This document shows, in pieces, positions 27,255-37,906 of a stretch of 64,000 nt of DNA. Source of the DNA: Lacrimispora celerecrescens. GTDB lineage: Bacteria > Bacillota > Clostridia > Lachnospirales > Lachnospiraceae. The notes under the pieces were generated by a model. That model had not been told where the DNA came from. It made no database searches and saw only the letters and a list, made by a program, of their open reading frames with translations. The stretch's first letter is position 1, and every line of letters starts with the position of its first letter. Location: positions 124,001 to 188,000 of the forward strand of contig NZ_JPME01000008.1 of assembly GCF_000732605.1 (NCBI RefSeq), read 5' to 3'. The position numbers were made by a program, and so were the translations under genes.

Positions 27255-28010
27255 CTAAAAGCCTTTTACCTCTATTCCTGCTTCTAAAAAACCTTCTCTT
27301 ATCCTTTTTACAAATTCCAGAGCCTTCCTTCCATCTCCATGAACACACACAGAATCCGCATCAATGGAAATTGTGCTTCCGTCAATGGCTTCCACCACCC
27401 CTTCTTTCGCCATTCGGATCACCCGCTTTAATGCCAGTTCCTCATCTTCAATCACTGCGCCTCTCCGGCTTCTTGGAACCAGGCTTCCATCCCTTTCATA
27501 GGCCCGGTCTGCAAATACCTCACTGGCAGCAGACACCCCTGTATCCTTTGCCGCCCGTAGCATCTCACTATTACTGAGAGCCAGAAGAACCAGGCTGTCA
27601 TCCACTTCTTTTATCGCCTGGCAAATGGCTTTTGCCAGTTCATAATCCTTTGCCGCCATGTTATACAACGCCCCATGGGGCTTTACATGGCAAAGTCTAA
27701 TTCCAGCGCCTCTGCAGAAAGCGTCCAGGGCTCCGATCTGATACATAACACTGGTTTTTACTTCGCTGGGAGTAAGGCTCATATTTCTTCTTCCAAATCC
27801 CGCCAGATCAGGAAATCCCGGATGGGCCCCTGCCCTCACTCCATATTTTTTACACAAAGCCACCGTCTGTTCCATTACCATAGGATCTCCTCCATGAAAA
27901 CCACAGGCAATGTTTGCCGATGTAACATAGAGCAGCACTTCTTCATCCAGTCCCATTTTATAAGCACCGAAGCTTTCTCCCAAATCGCAGTTCAAGTCAA
28001 TGACCGGCAT
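27255..28010 (-). CDS. pxpA: 5-oxoprolinase subunit PxpA (LamB/YcsF family)
   Basis: A 251-residue LamB/YcsF protein with the family motifs [41 protein letters not shown] and [10 protein letters not shown], which hold the conserved Asp, His and Glu residues. With PxpB and PxpC it forms the bacterial ATP-dependent 5-oxoprolinase that opens 5-oxoproline to glutamate. Last gene of the long operon. It is separated from pxpB and pxpC by the DUF1445 gene, an unusual order that ties the latter to the pathway. Confidence 0.93.
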
Positions 28011-28020
28011 ATTCTCACCT

Positions 28021-28830
28021 CTAATCCTTTAATTCTGCATTTTTTAAATCCGTAATAAACATGTGTCCCGGGGCATGAGTAATTACAAAGGGAGGCCTGC
28101 TGTTCATGACCACTGCCTGTGGCGTTACACCGCAGGGCCAGAAAACAGGCACCTCTCCATCATGTATGGTCACCGGATCACCAAAATCCGGTTTGTTAAT
28201 ATCTTTAATACCAAGAACTTCCGGATAACCAATGTGAACAGGGCCCCCATGCACCTTTGGCATGGAAGCTGTAATAGCAACCGCACTGGAAACCTGGTGA
28301 TGAGGAATGGGCCTCATGCTCACCACCAGGTTACCTGAAAATACACCTGCCGGTGTACAGGGAATGTTCGTATGGAACATAGGAACATTTACCCTTTCCT
28401 CTATCTGTCTCACCGGTATTCCGGCCTCCAAAAGTGCTGTTTCAAAAGAAAAACTGCAGCCAATGAGAAAGCTTACCAGCTTTCCCCTGGTTCTTTGATA
28501 ATCCTCAAACAAATCTGATACATCTGTGTATTCACCGGTGCACTCGCCGTATTCATACACCCGGTATCTGGGAATGTCCCTTGGGATATCACTTTCTTCT
28601 GCTGTCAGCGAAAAACTTCTGCTCCCTGCATCCGATACTTCCAGAAGCGGGCAGGCCTTTTGATTCCTCTGGCAGAATAAAAGAAAATCCCATGCCATCT
28701 CTTCGGGAAGAATCACCAGATTTCCCTGAGCATAGCCGCCGCACATTCCGGTGGTAGGACTCTGGATCACACCCTCCCTAATCAACCGGCGAACTTCCTT
28801 TGGCTTTCTGTTTCTGTACTCTGGCTCCAT
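28021..28830 (-). CDS. DUF1445 family protein (putative hydro-lyase, DGLUCY N-domain homologue)
   Basis: A 269-residue protein of the DUF1445 family, usual length. Recognisable blocks: [39 protein letters not shown], and [14 protein letters not shown] near the end with [11 protein letters not shown]. In animals this domain is fused to a DUF4392-like domain in DGLUCY, which cyclises D-glutamate to 5-oxo-D-proline. Here the DUF4392 protein is encoded three genes upstream in the same operon. GAAGGAAAG precedes the ATG. The catalytic role of this half is not established. Confidence 0.88.
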
Positions 28831-28862
28831 GTTCTTTCCTTCTTTCCTGTCTTATGGTCTAT

Positions 28863-29891
28863 TTACCGGTAAATGATATTCTTAAGCCGTTCCTTAAAAA
28901 TCCTCAGCTTTTCTTCTTCCTTCCGGCAGATTGCCACGGCTTCACCTGGAGTTACATATTGAAATGCCACCCATTCCCCCGGCTTTAACTGGGCCAATGC
29001 AGGGATGTCCGTACTGATCACGGTAGCGATTTTTGCATATCCTCCGGTGGTCTGATGATCTGACATCAAAACCATAGGAAGTCGGTCAGATGAGATTTGA
29101 ACGGATCCTTCCACGATCCCATCGGATATGATATCTGCCCCATTCTTCAATTCTATGGGTTCTCCCTCCAGTTTGCAGGCCATGCGGTCGCAGTCCGTGC
29201 TTAACCGGAAGGGGTTCCGGATCAGAGTGTTAAGTCCCAGTTCTGTAAAAGCATTTTCCTGGGGTCCCATTACGGCTCGCAGTAGAACCATACGGTCGTT
29301 TCCATAAAAACGATAAGGCGTTGATGAATGACGCAGCCATGGTTCATCCTCATCCACGGCTGCCAGCTTCTCATTTCCCTTTAATTTCTTTATCATTTTC
29401 TTAAACTGTCTGAGATCTTTCCCAGACTCCAGATAATCCCCTTCAAGAAGTGCCCTTCCCTCCAAGCCTCCCATGCGGCATTTTAAATTGGTAGAACGGC
29501 TTCCCATGACAGAAGGTACCTCTATTCCTCCATAGACCGCCATATAAGTCCGAAGACCTGAGACCGCAAGCCCCATGGTCAGAATATCTCCTTTCCGTAC
29601 CAGAAGTGGGGAGAACATGGGTACAGGCTTTTCATTGATACAGGGGGTCATATCCCCGCCTGTAAGAGCGATGATCTCTTCAGAGGTAAAACGGATCTCA
29701 CCGCCCTTTAACGTAAATTCTATGACTGCCGCTGTTTCCGGCTCTTCCAGATTCCCGGCAAGGAGATTGGCAAGCTTCATGGAGTACTTGTCACAGGCTC
29801 CGCTTTCCTGGATGCCCTGACTTAAAAATCCTCTTCTCCCTTTATCCTGAACCGTGGATAAGGCTCCAGGACGCAAGATTTCAAATCCCAT
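28863..29891 (-). CDS. pxpC: 5-oxoprolinase subunit PxpC (biotin-dependent carboxylase-like family)
   Basis: A 342-residue protein of the allophanate hydrolase subunit 2 / KipA family: GALSTVQDKGRRGFLSQGI at the start, RNPFRLSTDCDRMACKLEG in the middle and SDRLPMVLMSDHQTTGGYAKIA late. Works with PxpA and PxpB to open 5-oxoproline using ATP. Its start lies 4 bp after the pxpB stop, with GGGGTG as ribosome site. Confidence 0.92.
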   Translation of the reverse strand: MGFEILRPGALSTVQDKGRRGFLSQGIQESGACDKYSMKLANLLAGNLEEPETAAVIEFTLKGGEIRFTSEEIIALTGGDMTPCINEKPVPMFSPLLVRKGDILTMGLAVSGLRTYMAVYGGIEVPSVMGSRSTNLKCRMGGLEGRALLEGDYLESGKDLRQFKKMIKKLKGNEKLAAVDEDEPWLRHSSTPYRFYGNDRMVLLRAVMGPQENAFTELGLNTLIRNPFRLSTDCDRMACKLEGEPIELKNGADIISDGIVEGSVQISSDRLPMVLMSDHQTTGGYAKIATVISTDIPALAQLKPGEWVAFQYVTPGEAVAICRKEEEKLRIFKERLKNIIYR

Positions 29892-29895
29892 CCCA

Positions 29896-30585
29896 TCACC
29901 CCATTTCCTGATTTCTTTTTATTTCTTTATATTCTTCCTGGCTGATGGGTACAAAACGAATGGAATCACCGGCTTCATAAAGAGGTTTTCCCACTTGCTC
30001 CGGCTTAAAAAGTCGGTAAGGTGTACGTCCGATCAACTGCCAGCCTCCCGGAGAATCCATGGAATAGATTCCCGTCTGCTCTCCTCCGATTCCTACGCTT
30101 CCTGCCGGAATCCTGGTTCTTGGTGAGTTTAACCGTGGAGTAAAAATGCGTTCGTCCATTCCTCCAAGATAGGGAAAGCCCGGAAGAAATCCCAGCATAT
30201 AAATACGGTAATCCCTGCTGCTGTGAATCCGGATCACCTCTTCTTCCGTGATCTTTCCATGTTCCGCTACAAAAGAAAGATCCGGCCCAAAGCTGCCTCC
30301 GTAGCAGACCGGAATTTCCACCAGCTTTCCTCTTAACCCGGTTTTGCCTTCCAATGATTCTGACAGTAGAGAAAGAACCTTTGATACCGCGCCATAATCT
30401 GTTTTCAATGGGTCATAACAAATGAGAACAGAACAAAAGGCAGGTACTGTCTCAAGAATCCCTTCCACTGAAAGCCCATGGATCCTTCGGTTTAATTCCA
30501 TTACCTTCGAATTTACCTCCTCGCTGATGGAATCCCCCAATTCCACCAGGACACCGCAATCACCGACCGGCTTTATTTGAATCAT
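29896..30585 (-). CDS. pxpB: 5-oxoprolinase subunit PxpB (KipI family)
   Basis: A 229-residue protein of the allophanate hydrolase subunit 1 / KipI family. Motifs: GDCGVLVELGDSISEEVN, LGFLPGFPYLGGMDERI, TPRLNSPRTRIPAGSVGIGG and GGWQLIGRTPYRLF. It partners PxpC. Start overlaps the stop of the DUF4392 gene (ATGA), so the two are translationally coupled, direct support for a shared pathway. Confidence 0.93.
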   Translation of the reverse strand: MIQIKPVGDCGVLVELGDSISEEVNSKVMELNRRIHGLSVEGILETVPAFCSVLICYDPLKTDYGAVSKVLSLLSESLEGKTGLRGKLVEIPVCYGGSFGPDLSFVAEHGKITEEEVIRIHSSRDYRIYMLGFLPGFPYLGGMDERIFTPRLNSPRTRIPAGSVGIGGEQTGIYSMDSPGGWQLIGRTPYRLFKPEQVGKPLYEAGDSIRFVPISQEEYKEIKRNQEMG

Positions 30586-31664
30586 GACCTATCCCCTTCT
30601 TCAAAAAACCCCTTTTTCAGTACAGAGCGAAACCAGTGATCGGAATTACAGGAATATCGGACCGCATAGGCCGTACACTGGCGCATCAGGCTGACAATTC
30701 CTGTATTCAGCCGGGTATTGAAACCATCGATACCAGGAATCAGAGATCCGGTCATATCAATAAGACCGGTTCTTGACGCCGCTCTCATCAGTTCCGCTTC
30801 CATTTCTTCCCGGTGAAGAATTTCCATATCCCGCTTTAAATAGGCCAGTGCCGCGATCAAACCGTAACAGCCCCAGTCAGAGCAGGTTGCCGTTATCACA
30901 TGGTCTGCTCGGCTGGCTGCCAGAATTCCGCCTCCGCAACCGCACGCACATTCCCCGGGAGCCGTGAAAGGTATGTATTTTTTAATATGATCTGCTATGG
31001 CTCCCATGCCGATCTCGTTGCCAAGATCACCAATGGCAATATTTAAGACTCCCATTTTACGAAGCATTTCCCATAGTACATCAGTCTTGGCTTCCAGCTC
31101 TGTTACATTATCTCCGGCAGAGTTATGATAAACACCATTTTCATTGGAACCGGGAGCCTCCACAGCGATTACCGCTCCGGGGAGCCCTTCTTTTATCAGC
31201 CACTTCGCTTCAATTTCTGCCCTGGCCGGATTTTTTGTAAAGGCCACCACTCCCATGCTGAGAGGAAGCTCCCTTACGGTCTCGATATCCTGGTAAATAT
31301 GAAGACCTACCACGCAAGCACATTTCATTACCGATTTCACACAGTCATCAGGACAAATGATAACAGGCTTTGCCCCAAAAGACATGACCAAAGCTCTTGC
31401 CAGCAGCATGGAACTGACCATTCCATCCATCTCCGGCTTCTTATGAGGCAGAAGCACAAATCCTGTCAATATATAAACCAGATCATTTTCTTTCACTGCT
31501 TCACACAGCTTTTCCGCCGCTCTCATGGTAAGAGGCTCCCCCATCTGCTCCCGGCTTCCAGCATAAAGAATCCGGCATATCCCATAGCCCCTGGGATCTA
31601 AATTCATCAGAGCATCCAGGTTTTCTCCCACATTTCTCTTTTCCAGTCCGCCTCTGTCCATCAT
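30582..31664 (-). CDS. DUF4392 family D-glutamate cyclase-like protein
   Basis: About 360 residues matching DUF4392, the C-terminal domain of animal D-glutamate cyclase DGLUCY. Visible blocks: NLDPRGYGICRILY at the start, a Rossmann-like LVYILTGFVLLPHKKPEMDG, IAIGDLGNEIGMG, and the Cys-rich GECACGCGGGILAASRADH then ATCSDWGCYGL. The expected reaction is D-glutamate to 5-oxo-D-proline plus water. Two start ATGs (31664, 31661) follow AGGAG. It is coupled by overlap to pxpB and lies 7 bp after a D-amino-acid transaminase gene. Confidence 0.85.
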   Translation of the reverse strand: MMDRGGLEKRNVGENLDALMNLDPRGYGICRILYAGSREQMGEPLTMRAAEKLCEAVKENDLVYILTGFVLLPHKKPEMDGMVSSMLLARALVMSFGAKPVIICPDDCVKSVMKCACVVGLHIYQDIETVRELPLSMGVVAFTKNPARAEIEAKWLIKEGLPGAVIAVEAPGSNENGVYHNSAGDNVTELEAKTDVLWEMLRKMGVLNIAIGDLGNEIGMGAIADHIKKYIPFTAPGECACGCGGGILAASRADHVITATCSDWGCYGLIAALAYLKRDMEILHREEMEAELMRAASRTGLIDMTGSLIPGIDGFNTRLNTGIVSLMRQCTAYAVRYSCNSDHWFRSVLKKGFFEEGDRS

Positions 31665-31670
31665 CCACTC

Positions 31671-32528
31671 CTAATCAAATATACTATCTCTGCCTGTATA
31701 CTCTAAATATTCTTCTAAAACAGCATCCTGAATCTTCTTTAACGTCACCGGATCCTTTCCTCCCACAGATTTTCCGTCAATAACGTCTGCATGAAGGCAG
31801 AAATTGGAGGAAGAAGTCACGATGACCTCATCGGCATCCATAAGCTCTTCCATGGTAAATGCCCGCTCCAATACCTGGATTCCAAGCCTGTAGCAGGCCT
31901 GGATCATATGGGTCTTTGCAATCCCACGGAGGATCAGGTTATCATTGGGGTGGGAAAGGAAGGTTCCGTTCTTTAAAATGGAAACATTGCTGTGGGCGCA
32001 CTCCGTAACCATATCACCTCTATGCAAAACAGTTTCCATTGCTCCGGCTTTTAAAGCCTCCTGTGAGGCAAGCACAGACGGGAGAAGATTTAAGGTCTTA
32101 ATATTGCAGTACAAAAACCTGGTGTCTTCCATTGTTATCAGGCGGATAGGAACATCAGGGTCTTTTAGTTTATTAGGCCTAATCATGACCCACAGCTTTC
32201 CAAGCATTGCCTCGTCATAAGCATGATCCCTGGGAGCTGTTCCTCTTGTCACCTGCCAGTACACAAAATGCGTATTCCCCTCCACCATGGAAAGAAGTTT
32301 GGTCAGTAGTTCTCCAAGCTCCTTCTTATCCATAGGAATCTTAATATCCAAGGCTTTGGCACTGGAGTAAAAACGGTCCAGATGATCTTCCAGAAGATAC
32401 ACTTTGTGATTCCCTCCAACGGTAGCATCATAAACTCCATCTCCAAAAAAATGAACCCGGTCCTGAAAGGGAACCATTAATTCCTCAGGGGTTCCGATCC
32501 TTCCATCATAATAAGCAAGCTCTTTCAT
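31671..32528 (-). CDS. Class IV aminotransferase, D-amino-acid transaminase type
   Basis: A 285-residue PLP enzyme. Features that favour D-amino-acid transaminase over the branched-chain type: the N-terminal VHFFGDGVYDATVGGNHKVY, the Schiff-base Lys in YCNIKTLNLLPSVLASQEA (about 143), and length near 285. It would exchange amino groups between D-alanine, D-glutamate and their keto acids. Its stop lies 7 bp before the DUF4392 gene and its start overlaps the end of the kinase-like gene by 4 bp. Confidence 0.9.
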   Translation of the reverse strand: MKELAYYDGRIGTPEELMVPFQDRVHFFGDGVYDATVGGNHKVYLLEDHLDRFYSSAKALDIKIPMDKKELGELLTKLLSMVEGNTHFVYWQVTRGTAPRDHAYDEAMLGKLWVMIRPNKLKDPDVPIRLITMEDTRFLYCNIKTLNLLPSVLASQEALKAGAMETVLHRGDMVTECAHSNVSILKNGTFLSHPNDNLILRGIAKTHMIQACYRLGIQVLERAFTMEELMDADEVIVTSSSNFCLHADVIDGKSVGGKDPVTLKKIQDAVLEEYLEYTGRDSIFD

Positions 32529-33188
32529 AATATCTCCTTTTCACTGGAACAAATCCCAAATTTAAGCTCCATGAATTTCTTAATTAATTCCACACAATGA
32601 TCCAGCCCCAGACTTTCCGTATTCAGGCAAAGATCATAATTTTCAGGGTTCTTCCACTGCCTTCCGGTATGGTACATATAATAGGAATTCCTGTATTTAT
32701 CCAGTCTGTCTATATACTTTACAGCCTCCTGTTCGGATATTCCCTGCCGCTTCATCTCTCTTTTTAAGCGGAATTCATAGGGAGCATCCAGATACACGGA
32801 TACTACATTAGGCTCATCCTTTAAGACAAAATCCGCTGCCCGGCCAATGCAGACGTAGGATTCATGATGAAGAAGCTCCTGCAATACCTTTGCCTGATAA
32901 TTAAAAAGATTCTGATCCGATAAAAAATTACCGCTTTCCTTAGGAATGACTTCCCCGCTGTAGACTCTTCTTGAGGCACGGTATAAAAAAGTTTTTTTTT
33001 GTATTCTCATCTGCATTTGCAAATATCGCCTCATTGATTCCGCTATCTTCCGAAGCCAGACGCAATAGCTTTCTGTCATATACATCGATCCCATAATCAG
33101 CCGCCAGTTTTTTTCCTATGTAGCTTCCGCCTCCGCTTCCGCAGGTACGGGTAATGGCAATGGCAAAATACTTCTTATTCTCATCCAT
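32525..33188 (-). pseudogene. Cytidylate-kinase-like protein with a homopolymer frameshift
   Basis: Two frames together encode one Cytidylate_kin2 protein of about 220 residues. Frame one (33188 downward) has FAIAITRTCGSGGGSYIGKK, the P-loop region, and DVYDRKLLRLASEDSGINEA; the second frame resumes with TFLYRASRRVYSGEVIPKE and continues VCIGRAADFVLKDE and VSVYLDAPYEFRLKRE to 32525. Removing one base from the T9 tract at 32992-33000 (A9 coding) restores DENTKKTFLYRAS. Substrate of this family is unknown. It lies inside the importer/5-oxoprolinase operon, overlapping the transaminase gene. Confidence 0.85.
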
Positions 33189-33200
33189 AGTCGTACTCTC

Positions 33201-33899
33201 CTATTGTCCTAGATATGCTTTCTTTACTCTGTCATCCTTTAGCATTTCTCCTGCATTACCTTCCATGGTAATCTTCCCTGTTTCCATGACATAGGCTCTG
33301 TTTGATATGGATAAAGCCATTTTTGCATTCTGTTCTACAAGTAGAATGGTGATTCCTTTTTTGTTTACTTCTCTGATAATAGAAAAGATTTCCTTTACCA
33401 GCAATGGAGATAGTCCCATAGACGGTTCATCCATCAGGATCATCTTAGGTTTTGCCATAAGAGCCCGGCCTACGGCAAGCATCTGCTGCTCCCCGCCGGA
33501 CAAAGTTCCTGCCAGCTGTTTTTTCCGCTCTTTTAATCGGGAAAAACGTTCAAATACATCTGCCATATTGGCTGCCATGTCTTTTCCATCGGTAAATGCC
33601 CCCATCTCCAGATTTTCTTCTACGGTCATCTGGGGGAAAATATGACGCCCTTCCGGCACATGTGCCAGCTTTAGATTGATGATCTTGCTGGGTTCTGTTT
33701 TTAACAAATCGGCTCCGTCAAAAAGTATCTCCCCCTTGTCAGCTTTCTTTAACCCTGAAATAGTTCTTAAGATCGTGGTTTTTCCTGCTCCATTTGCCCC
33801 GATAAGGGAAACGATTTCTCCATCATGAACTTCCAGAGATACTCCATGGATGGCTTCAATGGCTCCGTAAGATACTGCCAGATTCGTTATCTTAAGCAT
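33201..33899 (-). CDS. livF: Branched-chain-type amino acid ABC transporter ATPase, LivF family
   Basis: A 232-residue ATPase: Walker A GANGAGKTT (about 37), the LivF-typical HVPEGRHIFPQMTVEENLEMG, signature LSGGEQQMLAVGRALM and Walker B MILMDEPSMGL. A longer in-frame reading upstream is overlap with livG; ATG 33899 has GGAGG and overlaps the livG stop by 8 bp. Energises the importer with LivG. The HAAT family carries branched-chain amino acids but also many other compounds, so the substrate here may be different. Confidence 0.92.
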   Translation of the reverse strand: MLKITNLAVSYGAIEAIHGVSLEVHDGEIVSLIGANGAGKTTILRTISGLKKADKGEILFDGADLLKTEPSKIINLKLAHVPEGRHIFPQMTVEENLEMGAFTDGKDMAANMADVFERFSRLKERKKQLAGTLSGGEQQMLAVGRALMAKPKMILMDEPSMGLSPLLVKEIFSIIREVNKKGITILLVEQNAKMALSISNRAYVMETGKITMEGNAGEMLKDDRVKKAYLGQ

Positions 33900-34698
33900 C
33901 TTCCTCCACCTCCTCATCGTCTTTTCCCAAATAGGCTTCAATGACCTTTGGATGATTGGCAATCTCCTCCGGAGTCCCGGCGGCAATGGTGGTGCCGAAA
34001 TCAAGGACAGAAATCCGTTCACAGATCTTCATGACCAGGCTCATGTCATGTTCGATAAGAAGCACGGAAATCTTAAATTCATCACGGATATAGTTGATAA
34101 TCTCCAGGAGTTCTTCCGTTTCTGTCGGGTTCATCCCAGCTGCAGGTTCATCAAGAAGAAGGAGTTTCATATCCGTAGCCAGGGCTCTGGCTATCTCCAG
34201 ACGCCTCTGCTCTCCATAAGGAAGATTTCCTGCTTCGTAATCTTCTTTTCCATTTAGATGCACGATTTGAAGCAGTTCTTCCGCTCTTTTTGTTAGTTCC
34301 TCTTCCTGCTTCCAGTAAGACGGCGTACGAAAGACGGCATGGAACAGATTGTAGGAAAGTTTGGCTCCCATAGCGGCCTTTACATTATCGATTACAGACA
34401 TTTTCTTAAATAACCGAATATTCTGGAATGTTCTTGCAATTCCCGCTTCGACAATCTGATGGGTCTTTTTCCCATTCATGGACTGACCATTTAAGTAAAA
34501 GGATCCTTCCGTTGGTTTATAAACACCAGTGATCAGATTGAACACTGTGGTTTTTCCTGCGCCGTTTGGACCAATCAGTCCTACCAATTCCGATTCTCCG
34601 ATTTCCATATTAAAACTGTCCACCGCTTTTAATCCGCCGAACTGGATTCCCAGGTTCTGTGCCCTTAATACCGGCATGGTTCCTTCTGTTCCCGTCAT
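33892..34698 (-). CDS. livG: Branched-chain-type amino acid ABC transporter ATPase, LivG family
   Basis: A 268-residue ATPase with Walker A GPNGAGKTT, the LivG insertion region (IARTFQNIRLFKKMSVIDNV), signature YGEQRRLEIARALA and Walker B LLLLDEPAAGMNPTE. GGAGG lies 9 nt before ATG 34698; the in-frame ATG at 34740 is inside livM and lacks a site. C-terminus is acidic (DDEEVEEDA). Confidence 0.92.
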   Translation of the reverse strand: MTGTEGTMPVLRAQNLGIQFGGLKAVDSFNMEIGESELVGLIGPNGAGKTTVFNLITGVYKPTEGSFYLNGQSMNGKKTHQIVEAGIARTFQNIRLFKKMSVIDNVKAAMGAKLSYNLFHAVFRTPSYWKQEEELTKRAEELLQIVHLNGKEDYEAGNLPYGEQRRLEIARALATDMKLLLLDEPAAGMNPTETEELLEIINYIRDEFKISVLLIEHDMSLVMKICERISVLDFGTTIAAGTPEEIANHPKVIEAYLGKDDEEVEEDA

Positions 34699-34700
34699 AG

Positions 34701-35717
34701 TTATACACCTCCTTCTGTTTTTTTCCGGCTCTTTTCCCAACCGCCTTTTCTGCCTGTCAGACGTTCATATACACGAATAAGGGAAAATTCCCACGCTCCG
34801 AAGATACCGCCCGGTTTGAATATCATAACCAGTACCAGTACTACAGAGTATGCCAGCATACGGTACTGGGAGAACTGGCGCATCATCTCCGGAAGAGAAG
34901 AAAGAAAAGATGCACCGATGATGGACCCGGTAATGGAGCCGATCCCTCCAATGATTACCTCTGAGAGAAGCTCCGCAGAGTACATAAAGTTAAAGTTAGT
35001 AGGAATCATAGCTGTCATGTAATGAGCATAAACACCTCCGCCGATTCCTGCAAAGAAAGCTGCTACAGTAAAGGTAAGCACTTTATAATAAGTTACATTG
35101 ATTCCAGAAGCAGACGCTGCTATATAATCTTCCCGAATGGCTTTCACTGTTCTTCCAAATCGGCTTCGCACGTACATATACATGACCGTGATGCAGACTA
35201 CCATGATCCAGAAGCTCCAATAGAAGTTAGAAAGCTTTATAATACCGCTCATGGTTTTCCCACCCCCGGTAATCGAAAGATTGCAAAAGAGCACCCGGAT
35301 GATCTCCGCAAAGGCAATGGTCACAATGGCAAGATAATCCCCCCTTAAGCGGAGTGCAGGAATCCCAACAAGGACTCCGGTCAAACCGGCTGCAATCCCT
35401 CCTGCAAGAAGAGCAACCAGGAATAATGCGATATCGGGCAGCCCTTTTCCGGTAAGTCCATTGGACACAATGGCAGAGGCATATGCTCCCACTGATACAA
35501 AACCCGCATGGCCAAGGGAAAATTCGCCCATGCAGCCCACCACCAGATTTAAGGAAGCTACCATAATGATCGTATAACAGGCGGTGGTACTGATTCCCTT
35601 GATATACTGAGTGGACCGGCCAAAAGCATTGTTTTCAAAAAGCAGGACAAACAGGAAAAAAACTGCCAGAACCCCCAGGAAATTAAGGAAATAGGAAACT
35701 TTAAACCTCTTTTCCAT
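34701..35717 (-). CDS. livM: Branched-chain-type amino acid ABC permease, LivM family
   Basis: A 338-residue permease with about nine hydrophobic segments. Family motifs: NLVVGCMGEFSLGHAGFVSVGAYA, the RLRGDYLAIVTIAFAEIIRV loop that contacts the ATPase, and GGIGSITGSIIGASFLS. GGGGGTGG precedes the ATG. 2 bp before livG. Confidence 0.93.
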   Translation of the reverse strand: MEKRFKVSYFLNFLGVLAVFFLFVLLFENNAFGRSTQYIKGISTTACYTIIMVASLNLVVGCMGEFSLGHAGFVSVGAYASAIVSNGLTGKGLPDIALFLVALLAGGIAAGLTGVLVGIPALRLRGDYLAIVTIAFAEIIRVLFCNLSITGGGKTMSGIIKLSNFYWSFWIMVVCITVMYMYVRSRFGRTVKAIREDYIAASASGINVTYYKVLTFTVAAFFAGIGGGVYAHYMTAMIPTNFNFMYSAELLSEVIIGGIGSITGSIIGASFLSSLPEMMRQFSQYRMLAYSVVLVLVMIFKPGGIFGAWEFSLIRVYERLTGRKGGWEKSRKKTEGGV

Positions 35718-35728
35718 GATCCACCCCC

Positions 35729-36619
35729 TTAAACTTTCTCGCCAACATTCTTGCCAAGAATGCCGGACGGCTTCACCAATAGAATCACGATCAGAATGCC
35801 ATAGGTAATCGCTTCATACCAGCCCGGTGCAAAGAGCTTTACATAAATCTCAATGAGGCCGACAAGAATTCCTCCAAGCATAGCTCCGGGAATGACTCCG
35901 ATCCCACCAAGGACAGCGGCAATAAAGGCCTTAAGTCCCATCATGGAACCCATATCATTGGTGACACGAGGGTATTTGGCACAGTACATAAGGGCGGCAA
36001 CTGCTGCCAGTGCAGAGCCAATAGCAAAGGTCATGGTAATGACTTTATTGACATTGATTCCCGCCAGAATGGAAGCATCCCGATCCTGAGGAACCGCCCG
36101 CATGGCTTTCCCTATCTTGGTACTTTTTATAAATATCTGAAGGCACGCCATCATAACAACCCCGATACCGATGGTCAAGATAACATTCAGAGGAAGGGCC
36201 ACTCCAAGCACATTTACAGAGGGTAAATCAAATATTTTCTGGACATTATGGGGCTTTGCACCAAAAAGAACCATGGCCAGATTTTCAAGAAACAGACTCA
36301 TGGCAAGTGCTGTAATAAGAGCTGACATGGAGCCGGCCCTACGGACCGGCTTATATGCTATCACCTCAACCAGGACTCCCACCGCAGCGCATATGACCAC
36401 GGCAAGGAAAACGGAAATCCAAGCTGGCATTCCGGCATGGATCATCATAGGAATGGTATAAAATAAAGTATAGGCTCCAATCATGATGAAATCGCCATGA
36501 GCAAAGTTAATCATACGGATGATTCCATATACCATGGTATAACCAAGTGCAATCAAAGCATAGATAGCGCCCTGATTCAGTCCGTTTATCAGGCTTTGAA
36601 AGAATAATGAGAATGTCAT
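35729..36619 (-). CDS. livH: Branched-chain-type amino acid ABC permease, LivH family
   Basis: A 296-residue permease with about eight membrane segments; motifs GLNQGAIYALIALGYTMVYG, MINFAHGDFIMIGAY and LGGIGVIPGAMLGGILVGL. GGAGGAAG precedes the ATG. Lies 18 bp after the binding-protein gene and 11 bp before livM. Confidence 0.93.
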   Translation of the reverse strand: MTFSLFFQSLINGLNQGAIYALIALGYTMVYGIIRMINFAHGDFIMIGAYTLFYTIPMMIHAGMPAWISVFLAVVICAAVGVLVEVIAYKPVRRAGSMSALITALAMSLFLENLAMVLFGAKPHNVQKIFDLPSVNVLGVALPLNVILTIGIGVVMMACLQIFIKSTKIGKAMRAVPQDRDASILAGINVNKVITMTFAIGSALAAVAALMYCAKYPRVTNDMGSMMGLKAFIAAVLGGIGVIPGAMLGGILVGLIEIYVKLFAPGWYEAITYGILIVILLVKPSGILGKNVGEKV

Positions 36620-36637
36620 AGGATCTTCCTCCCTTGT

Positions 36638-37906
36638 TTATTCCTTTGTTCCTTCCGGTGAAAGAGTCATAAGCCATTTCACCTTACCGCCTTCAAAGGT
36701 ATTGATCGCTACGGATTTCTCCGGGTCGCCGTTTTCATCCATGGTAAAGGTTCCTCCCACCCCTGTAAAAGTCATTCCGGTCATCCCATTTACAAGGGAA
36801 ACCGTATCTGATGCACCGCTGTTTTTGGCTGCTTCCACCAGCATATAAATGGCATCATAGTAAAGAGCGGCACAGGCATTTAAGCTTTCCGTACCATACT
36901 TTTCCGTATATTTGGACACGAAATTGACTACAGCCGGAGCAGTATCTTCCGAAGAATAGTGGTTGGTAAAATAACAGTTCTCAAAATTATCTTCAAAGCC
37001 AGCAGTATCGGTTCCATCCCAGCCATCGCCGCCCATGACTGCCCCGTCAAAGCCTGCATCCCTTGCCGCACCTACCAGAAGAGGAACCGTATCTAAGAAA
37101 GCGGGATAAAACAGGAAATCTGCTCCTTTTGCCACCACCTGGGAAGTCTGGGATGAAAAGTCTGTATCCTTTGTGGTACATTCTCCCACATATACTACTT
37201 CAATTCCGTTTGCCTCGGCATTCTCTATAAATGCATCTTTTAAGCCGTTGGAATAATCATCATCCTTGGCATATATAACGGCGGCTTTTGTCCAGCCTTT
37301 TTCCTTTGCAAACTGGGCTGCCATTTTGCCCTGATATGGATCAATAAAACAATTCCTGAAAATGGTGGAACCTTTTAGGGTTACATCTTTATTGGTAGCT
37401 CCAGTTGCAAGAAGAAGCATATTGTCTTTGGAAGCCTGTTCGGCAACGGGAAGGGTAACGGAGGAAAAAAAGCTTCCCACGATGGCACTGGGGCCTTCCT
37501 TCATCAGACTGTTGTAAGCATTAATTGCCTGCTTGGCAGCACCGCCGTCATCTACTATTTTTCCGCCATTTACAATTTCAACCTTATAACCGGAATCACC
37601 GTCGTTGATTTCTTCAACTGCCATGGCAATGGCATTCTGCGCGCCTTCCCCATAAACAGCAGACCCTCCTGTGATAGGTCCGTACGCGCCGATCTTAATG
37701 GTTTTCCCGTCTTCTCCTTCCGGAGCAGATGCATCAGCCTGGGTGGACGATGTATCCTGAGTAGCCGATGCATCCTGGGTAGCCGCTGAACTTGCTGCGG
37801 CTGTACTGCCTCCTGCGGCACTCTGCTGTGCAGATGAACCGCAGCCGGCAAGGAATGCTGCCGTCAATGCTGTAATAAGAGTTACGGGTAATAATCTTTT
37901 TTTCAT
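36638..37906 (-). CDS. Branched-chain-type amino acid ABC transporter binding lipoprotein
   Basis: A 422-residue periplasmic-binding fold type I receptor. Lipobox FLAGC (Cys22), a Ser/Ala/Thr-rich linker (about 23-68), then IKIGAYGPITGGSAVYGEG, the family N-terminal block, and GASDTVSLVNGMTGMTFTGVGG near the end. GGAGGAAG precedes the ATG. First gene of an operon that continues through transaminase, cyclase-like and 5-oxoprolinase genes, so the ligand may be a D- or cyclised glutamate rather than leucine; that is inference. Confidence 0.93.
   Translation of the reverse strand: MKKRLLPVTLITALTAAFLAGCGSSAQQSAAGGSTAAASSAATQDASATQDTSSTQADASAPEGEDGKTIKIGAYGPITGGSAVYGEGAQNAIAMAVEEINDGDSGYKVEIVNGGKIVDDGGAAKQAINAYNSLMKEGPSAIVGSFFSSVTLPVAEQASKDNMLLLATGATNKDVTLKGSTIFRNCFIDPYQGKMAAQFAKEKGWTKAAVIYAKDDDYSNGLKDAFIENAEANGIEVVYVGECTTKDTDFSSQTSQVVAKGADFLFYPAFLDTVPLLVGAARDAGFDGAVMGGDGWDGTDTAGFEDNFENCYFTNHYSSEDTAPAVVNFVSKYTEKYGTESLNACAALYYDAIYMLVEAAKNSGASDTVSLVNGMTGMTFTGVGGTFTMDENGDPEKSVAINTFEGGKVKWLMTLSPEGTKE

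Follow-up and report, generated by a model that had tools for sequence, protein, structure and literature searches.

An operon joining D-glutamate cyclase domains to 5-oxoprolinase, D-transaminase-like and Liv-type importer genes in Lacrimispora celerecrescens and its relatives

Described systems and the twelve-gene operon

It has been reported that mammals turn D-glutamate, a component of the bacterial cell wall, to 5-oxo-D-proline (PMC5339696), and the animal D-glutamate cyclase DGLUCY or GLUCM (mouse 9030617O03Rik, human C14orf159) is known as one fused protein with a DUF1445 and a DUF4392 domain, the separate roles of which are left unsettled in the publications considered here (PMC5339696, PMC5132392). 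In this study, we describe an operon of twelve minus-strand genes at 27255-37906 of a 64,000-nucleotide stretch, called the window here, of the 5.0 Mb genome of Lacrimispora celerecrescens (contig NZ_JPME01000008.1). The operon contains the same two domains but encodes them in two separate genes that flank pxpB and pxpC, and it links them to the genes for the 5-oxoprolinase PxpABC, a D-transaminase-like enzyme and an importer of the Liv type. We find that this linkage is real, conserved and has been built repeatedly. The interest of the operon lies mainly in making the roles of the D-glutamate cyclase domains testable: separate bacterial genes, linked to 5-oxoprolinase in one place and to a D-transaminase in another, offer direct access to what each domain does. 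In addition, such an operon in gut-type Clostridia would concretely connect bacterial D-glutamate with mammalian 5-oxo-D-proline.

The pxp operon of Bacillus subtilis (ycsF, ycsG/mntG, ycsI, kipI, kipA, kipR) shares PxpABC and the DUF1445 gene, there named ycsI, with the window operon; however, it includes an Nramp gene, the product of which, YcsG, has been shown to import Mn2+ (PMC10448178), whereas the window operon has DUF4392 and the D-transaminase-like gene and, by Pfam, no Nramp gene among its twelve. B. subtilis, used as a control in our profile search, gave no match to the DUF4392 model PF14336. The pxpTABC/pxpR genes of Corynebacterium glutamicum likewise combine genes for the use of 5-oxoproline with a dedicated transporter, but differ in that PxpT is an APC-type secondary transporter and that the regulator is of the GntR type (PMC13274462); the main text of that paper contains none of the strings D-glutam, 5-oxo-D-proline, DUF and stereo. 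TON_0340, a Thermococcus protein of the same family as the window DUF4392 protein, has been reported as a weak Mn2+-dependent phosphatase (PMC5132392). For human GLUCM, six split and no full-length homologues have been listed from gut bacteria (PMC11580864); DGLUCY, DUF4392 and DUF1445 are absent from the main text of that source, in which GLUCM and 5-oxoprolinase occur as table rows only. To judge from titles and abstracts, the operon is not described among the matches listed in the openly licensed literature.

An earlier reading of the same DNA, made from its letters without database searches and referred to here as the sequence-only reading, had stated the animal fusion correctly, as the publications cited above confirm, and had named the binding protein, LivHMGF, D-transaminase, DUF4392, PxpABC and DUF1445 genes. 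Pfam and NCBIfam profile searches of the window proteins agree with these identities. The order and packing it gave also stand, with livK, livH, livM, livG, livF, a cytidylate-kinase-like gene, the transaminase gene, DUF4392, pxpB, pxpC, DUF1445 and pxpA following one another, either separated by 2-32 bases or overlapping by 4-8; however, the kinase-like gene is not intact.

Both D-glutamate cyclase domains score well over cut-off. The DUF4392 protein (30582..31664, 360 amino acids) matches PF14336, now named D-glutamate cyclase-like C-terminal, with 281.9 bits, and its residues E78, D80, E169, D213, E217 and D313 align with the metal ligands E59, D61, E115, D157, E161 and D246 of TON_0340; all six acidic ligands are kept in 47 of the 47 rows of our DUF4392 tree, the window protein included. 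The DUF1445 protein (28021..28830, 269 amino acids) matches PF07286, at present named D-Glu_cyclase, with 237.1 bits, and the equivalog model NF003969 with 401.5 bits over a cut-off of 324, and its nearest solved structure is 3db9 (E 2.4e-87); a structure prediction from a four-row alignment reached a mean predicted local distance difference test score (pLDDT) of 31.1 and gave no usable model. All three 5-oxoprolinase subunits are encoded in the operon, DUF1445 separating pxpA from pxpC. PxpB (29896..30585; PF02682, 253.3 bits) is over the cut-off of the equivalog TIGR00370 (220.8 bits, cut-off 145.55), PxpC (28863..29891; PF02626, 272.6 bits) is over that of TIGR00724 and reaches 230.6 of the 500 bits of the curated equivalog NF045499, and PxpA (27255..28010; PF03746, 353.5 bits) is over that of the subfamily model NF003814 and below those of three PxpA equivalog models.

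The transaminase (31671..32528, 285 amino acids) is of class IV (PF01063), and its nearest solved structure is 3daa (E 1.6e-48). The best of its 18 NCBIfam matches is D_amino_aminoT (TIGR01121), yet the score is 218.5 of 277.45 bits, and because this cut-off is missed we call the protein D-transaminase-like, its membership being unproven. It shares an RxH stretch with 3daa, the R and H of which are found in all 29 copies that have the stretch, and its lysine is kept in 30 of 30 copies, the window copy included; we take the RxH stretch and the catalytic lysine to play here the parts that they play in D-amino-acid transaminase.

Conservation and repeated assembly of the enzyme set

The sequence-only reading had named a lack of conserved linkage in related genomes as the point that would count against it. 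Conserved linkage is what was found (genomes and loci are given by our own G and L numbers). PF14336 is present in 19 of the 25 genomes of the genus, the window genome counted, and every one of the 18 others that have it (24 others were searched) has the operon, complete with Liv genes, although G214 has it spread over two contigs, G215 reaches a contig edge within the Liv genes, and G217, G210 and G222 have it without the kinase-like gene. Because six genus members are without DUF4392, we regard the operon as an accessory trait. Across the family, PF14336 is over cut-off in 12 of 200 genomes, again including that of the window; in 8 of the 11 others it lies within a pxp operon and in three it does not (L063, L067, L068). 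Two other genera (G099, G142) preserve the full order, Liv and kinase-like genes included, and in G177 the same genes occur in a different arrangement. In one same-genus genome, G223 (locus L058), several frames are split (livG, DUF4392, pxpB, pxpC and DUF1445), which is the mark either of a decayed copy or of a poor assembly.

Beyond the family, the two cyclase domains keep company even when they are not neighbours. In a class sample of 393 genomes, 14 pass the cut-off for PF14336 and 25 that for PF07286; 12 of the 14 with DUF4392 have both, where 0.9 would be expected (P 1.9e-14), six of these 12 on different contigs. In a phylum sample of 398 genomes, the window DUF4392 protein matches 41 genomes and PF07286 matches 63, with both in 30 of the 41 against 6.5 expected (P 8e-19); the P values of both samples ignore shared descent. 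Counted by family code, 13 of the 18 families with DUF4392 include at least one genome with both domains. Chance clustering was dropped as an explanation in view of the synteny of the operon in relatives and the co-occurrence in both samples.

The trees indicate that the linkage arose more than once. Around the DUF4392 matches of the phylum sample (47 match rows) 31 loci had been fetched, 18 plus 13 that were picked for a nearby DUF1445 and so favour linked cases, and the DUF4392, DUF1445 and PxpABC trees were built without these 13. In the tree of 47 DUF4392 proteins, from which open reading frames of 250 amino acids or less were excluded, pxp linkage requires three changes, at least two of which are forced by well-supported branches; the pxp-linked proteins fall into a long-form clade of 11 rows, the window protein among them, a distant short-form clade of 5 rows and the single protein of L098. 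The DUF1445 tree (37 rows) places 15 of 16 proteins from operons with DUF4392 and pxp, of four family codes, in one clade (support 99/98), with L098 outside, and when the three Pxp proteins are joined in one tree (28 rows), a branch (support 100/99) has 14 of the 17 operons of this kind on one side and L089, L093 and L098 on the other. L089 and L093 thus have Pxp proteins from outside the main operon clade and a DUF1445 protein from inside its own main clade. A single DUF1445 lineage is therefore combined with DUF4392 of two lineages and with PxpABC of at least two, which we consider the strongest sign that the parts act together. The sequence-only reading had proposed a functional link of DUF1445 and DUF4392 with pxp; such a link, and with it one to the D-transaminase-like gene, is supported by a gene set that recurs across families, and this recurrence in distant relatives suggests a shared, putative salvage pathway.

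Two kinds of pxp locus and the proposed pathway

To compare neighbourhoods, open reading frames were matched with hidden Markov models built from the operon and its neighbours, which miss distant relatives of the neighbours, so that "no transporter" here means none recognised by these models. Among the loci fetched from outside the genus, DUF4392 stands with at least one pxp gene in 19 (L059, L060, L061, L062, L064, L065, L066, L069, L089, L093, L095, L098, L190, L213, L214, L216, L217, L218 and L219; L061, L066 and L213 are cut by a contig end), 14 of which have the D-transaminase gene and none a recognised Nramp gene. Loci with DUF1445 only were taken from the class sample alone: at 19 of its 25 DUF1445 places DUF4392 is not nearby, and 11 of these 19 have pxp genes. 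Among these 11 (L168 and L170 are cut by a contig end) Nramp is found in ten and the transaminase in none. The contrast has P values of 9e-5 for the transaminase and 4e-7 for Nramp when counted by locus; collapsed to family codes, that for the transaminase becomes 5 of 7 against 0 of 6 (P 0.02). The transaminase thus travels with DUF4392, on the D side, rather than with pxp in itself. This split of pxp operons into two kinds may explain why DUF1445 and DUF4392 sometimes travel apart.

From gene content, linkage and active-site residues, we infer an accessory catabolic operon that would feed both hands of 5-oxoproline, and the adjoining D-glutamate, through two parallel branches into central metabolism, a reading that we hold tentatively and at somewhat less than an even chance. 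In the L branch, PxpABC would open 5-oxo-L-proline to L-glutamate at the expense of ATP, as is known for the enzyme family. In the D branch, the DUF1445 and DUF4392 proteins, as a split bacterial counterpart of animal D-glutamate cyclase, with a putative Mn-type metal site in DUF4392, would interconvert 5-oxo-D-proline and D-glutamate. The D-transaminase-like enzyme would then use D-glutamate as the amino donor for pyruvate, which yields 2-oxoglutarate and D-alanine, and might pull the branch towards opening. Alanine racemase, where it is part of the operon, could convert D-alanine to L-alanine, and the Liv system would import the substrate of the operon.

The closing and opening of the 5-oxoproline ring leave the handedness of the alpha carbon unchanged. 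Because neither step touches this carbon, a path from D-glutamate through 5-oxo-D-proline and PxpABC returns D-glutamate at the cost of ATP. The sequence-only reading had proposed import of D-glutamate or 5-oxoproline and a single line from D-glutamate through 5-oxoproline and PxpABC to L-glutamate, as a full route. Every gene it named is present and linked, but with hydrolysis of 5-oxo-D-proline regenerating D-glutamate the route would be a loop unless an epimerase acts, and we consider it very improbable. The two branches are preferred because they require no epimerase or other unknown activity and because they give the transaminase a purpose.

Several observations weigh against two parallel branches. 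Ring opening without ATP is uphill, and the PxpC score given above lies well under the curated cut-off. No DUF1445 was found in 2 of the 14 DUF4392 genomes of the class sample and in 11 of the 41 of the phylum sample, and DUF4392 itself is missing from 6 of the 25 genomes of the genus. The transaminase is lacking in five of the 19 DUF4392-pxp loci outside the genus (L060, L098, L213, which is a contig fragment, L218 and L219), and in nine loci (L186, L189, L207-L212 and L215), four of them near a contig end, DUF1445 and DUF4392 form an adjacent pair without recognised pxp or transaminase genes; the gene order in these nine pairs matches that of the animal fusion. The ligand residues kept in the binding protein favour a free amino acid over 5-oxoproline, although 5-oxoproline may still be bound. 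Finally, the two-domain animal enzyme has been assayed in the direction from D-glutamate to 5-oxo-D-proline (PMC5339696).

The place of DUF1445 bears on a different solution, in which D-glutamate is closed to 5-oxo-D-proline, one of the two DUF proteins epimerises this to 5-oxo-L-proline, and PxpABC opens the product to L-glutamate with ATP, making the line irreversible. This would connect PxpABC to the cyclase pair within a single route, following the order that the sequence-only reading had given. Because DUF1445 adjoins pxp even where neither DUF4392 nor the transaminase is nearby, as in 11 of the 19 class loci, its own substrate may be 5-oxoproline, and DUF1445 would be the likelier epimerase; two of the 11 loci, however, come from genomes that have DUF4392 elsewhere (G316, G340). 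We know of no epimerase activity in the DUF1445 or DUF4392 family. Furthermore, the genome has four genes of the Asp/Glu racemase family, so that the conversion of D- to L-glutamate may not need a detour that costs ATP. In favour of an epimerase, ycsI of B. subtilis sits in a pxp operon (PMC10448178), and the animal protein has both domains, which leaves the ring-closing one undecided (PMC5339696); on the other hand, healthy humans excrete 5-oxoproline mostly in the D form (cited in PMC5339696), and this speaks against its epimerisation by the animal enzyme. Taken together, this linear route seems unlikely. We regard it as rather unlikely that one of the "cyclase" proteins, more probably DUF1445, is a 5-oxoproline epimerase and the operon an ATP-driven one-way converter of D- to L-glutamate by way of a ring-closed intermediate; if it were so, every pxp operon with DUF1445, that of B. 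subtilis included, would use both hands of 5-oxoproline. The same four racemase-family genes, none of which a curated model identifies as MurI, led us to drop D-glutamate synthesis for the cell wall as the role of the transaminase.

Some of the neighbouring genes point to alanine. An alanine racemase lies inside the set in L089, L093 and L095 (Pfam), L064 and L190 have a sodium:alanine symporter (AgcS) next to it, and an Lrp-type regulator adjoins it in six loci (L065, L089, L093, L190, L216 and L217; Pfam was run on the first four), on the opposite strand in L065 and L190. These genes would fit an operon centred on alanine, in which the importer takes up L- or D-alanine, racemase and transaminase make D-glutamate and pyruvate from it, and the cyclase and PxpABC process the D-glutamate. 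However, neither racemase nor AgcS was seen in the window operon or in the three same-genus loci scanned (L042, L050, L053), the handling of D-glutamate by PxpABC would again cost ATP and regenerate D-glutamate without an epimerase, and D-alanine can be broken down with neither cyclase nor Pxp, which makes this explanation decidedly improbable in our view.

Housekeeping is another explanation to be weighed, with pxp clearing the 5-oxoproline that forms spontaneously from glutamate or glutamine, the D genes recycling D-glutamate from peptidoglycan, and the importer being a passenger. Spontaneous formation is the stated source of cellular 5-oxoproline (PMC13274462), and in some loci, such as L065 and L095, the set has no recognised transporter. 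Against this, each of the 18 further same-genus genomes with the set has Liv genes along with it, as do G099, G142 and G177, and a gene absent from six of 25 genus members, as DUF4392 is, is unlike one with a housekeeping function, so that we think this account rather unlikely too.

A few loci outside the genus have further genes beside the set. In L060 (5727-9116) two D-2-hydroxyacid dehydrogenase genes and a class I aminotransferase gene lie upstream of DUF4392-pxp, at the place where others have the D-transaminase gene. In L089 (2845-4680) and L093 (3044-4869) accC- and accB-like genes adjoin pxpC (NCBIfam on L089), and such PxpBC may act as a carboxylase or as a lactamase. L216 has one further open reading frame between DUF1445 and DUF4392. 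Where DUF4392 is free of pxp, a gamma-glutamyltransferase-like gene follows it directly in L177, L180, L181 and L183 (Pfam on L181 only), and in L182 and L185 it adjoins genes that, named from their sequence, are sugar-kinase-like and pyridoxal-phosphate-enzyme-like, unlike the pxp contexts.

The importer, the kinase-like gene and the operon ends

The Liv-type importer is complete, with a binding protein, two permeases and two ATPases (PF13458, PF02653 twice and PF00005 twice). LivK (36638..37906) is a lipoprotein of 422 amino acids (PF13458, 168.8 bits), the nearest solved chain of which is 3td9 (E 3e-41). The permease LivH (35729..36619; PF02653, 144.1 bits) stays beside LivK in relatives, and LivM (34701..35717; PF02653, 134.1 bits) likewise shows synteny in relatives. 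LivG (33892..34698; PF00005, 109.9 bits; PF12399, 45.3 bits) begins with an ATG at 34698 behind AGGAGG, and the start of LivF (33201..33899; PF00005, 117.3 bits) was picked by eye; it scores 264.1 bits against the LivF model NF008626, under the cut-off of 441.

The binding protein retains the positions at which LivJ and LivK presumably hold the carboxylate and the amine of an amino acid, with Asp in place of Glu as in 4gnr, the database entry of which gives it as a binding protein for branched-chain amino acids. In the stretch for the side chain it reads YPAFLDTVP against GGYYPE of 1usg, and it scores 114.1 bits against the NCBIfam cut-off of 477 for branched-chain amino acid binding proteins. 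Its own genome contains five full-length paralogues at 24-34% identity and one match of 51 residues at 45%. The sequence-only reading had tied the enzyme set to LivK-type proteins; this association is found in the genus and in G099, G142 and G177, but elsewhere the set has the sodium:alanine symporter beside it (L064, L190) or lacks a recognised transporter, and because of this D-glutamate, alanine and 5-oxoproline are all candidate ligands. In L176, L177, L179 and L191, genes for NMT1_3/DctM-type (TAXI-TRAP-like) transporters lie near DUF4392 (Pfam on L191 only).

The ends of the operon were scanned for control elements, and nothing is concluded from these scans. Upstream of livK no promoter-like site was found on the minus strand, and one minus-strand terminator-like stem lies at 38001-37982 (0.2 in shuffles); the pxpA end yielded three promoter-like sites (0.8 in shuffles), of which two are on the minus strand, and no site resembling a terminator. 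An Rfam search of the window at the gathering threshold had no match, and a tRNA scan of it found none.

The cytidylate-kinase-like gene (32525..33188) is frameshifted in the window: its halves, at 32940-33188 and 32525-33094, each match PF13189 and lie in different frames. The frame changes at a stretch of nine A, through either a genuine mutation or an error in sequencing. Of 21 loci examined in relatives, of the genus and from outside it, 18 have the gene as one open reading frame, and in three (L041, L052 and L055) it was not found, which makes it the least needed part of the operon. A role of DUF4392 as the phosphatase partner of this kinase was dropped, the kinase being broken in the window and absent from those three relatives. 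In L041 (10477-15286), which has no kinase-like gene, livG, livF and the transaminase gene are tandemly doubled, with equal identity to the window, through either a duplication or an assembly fault.

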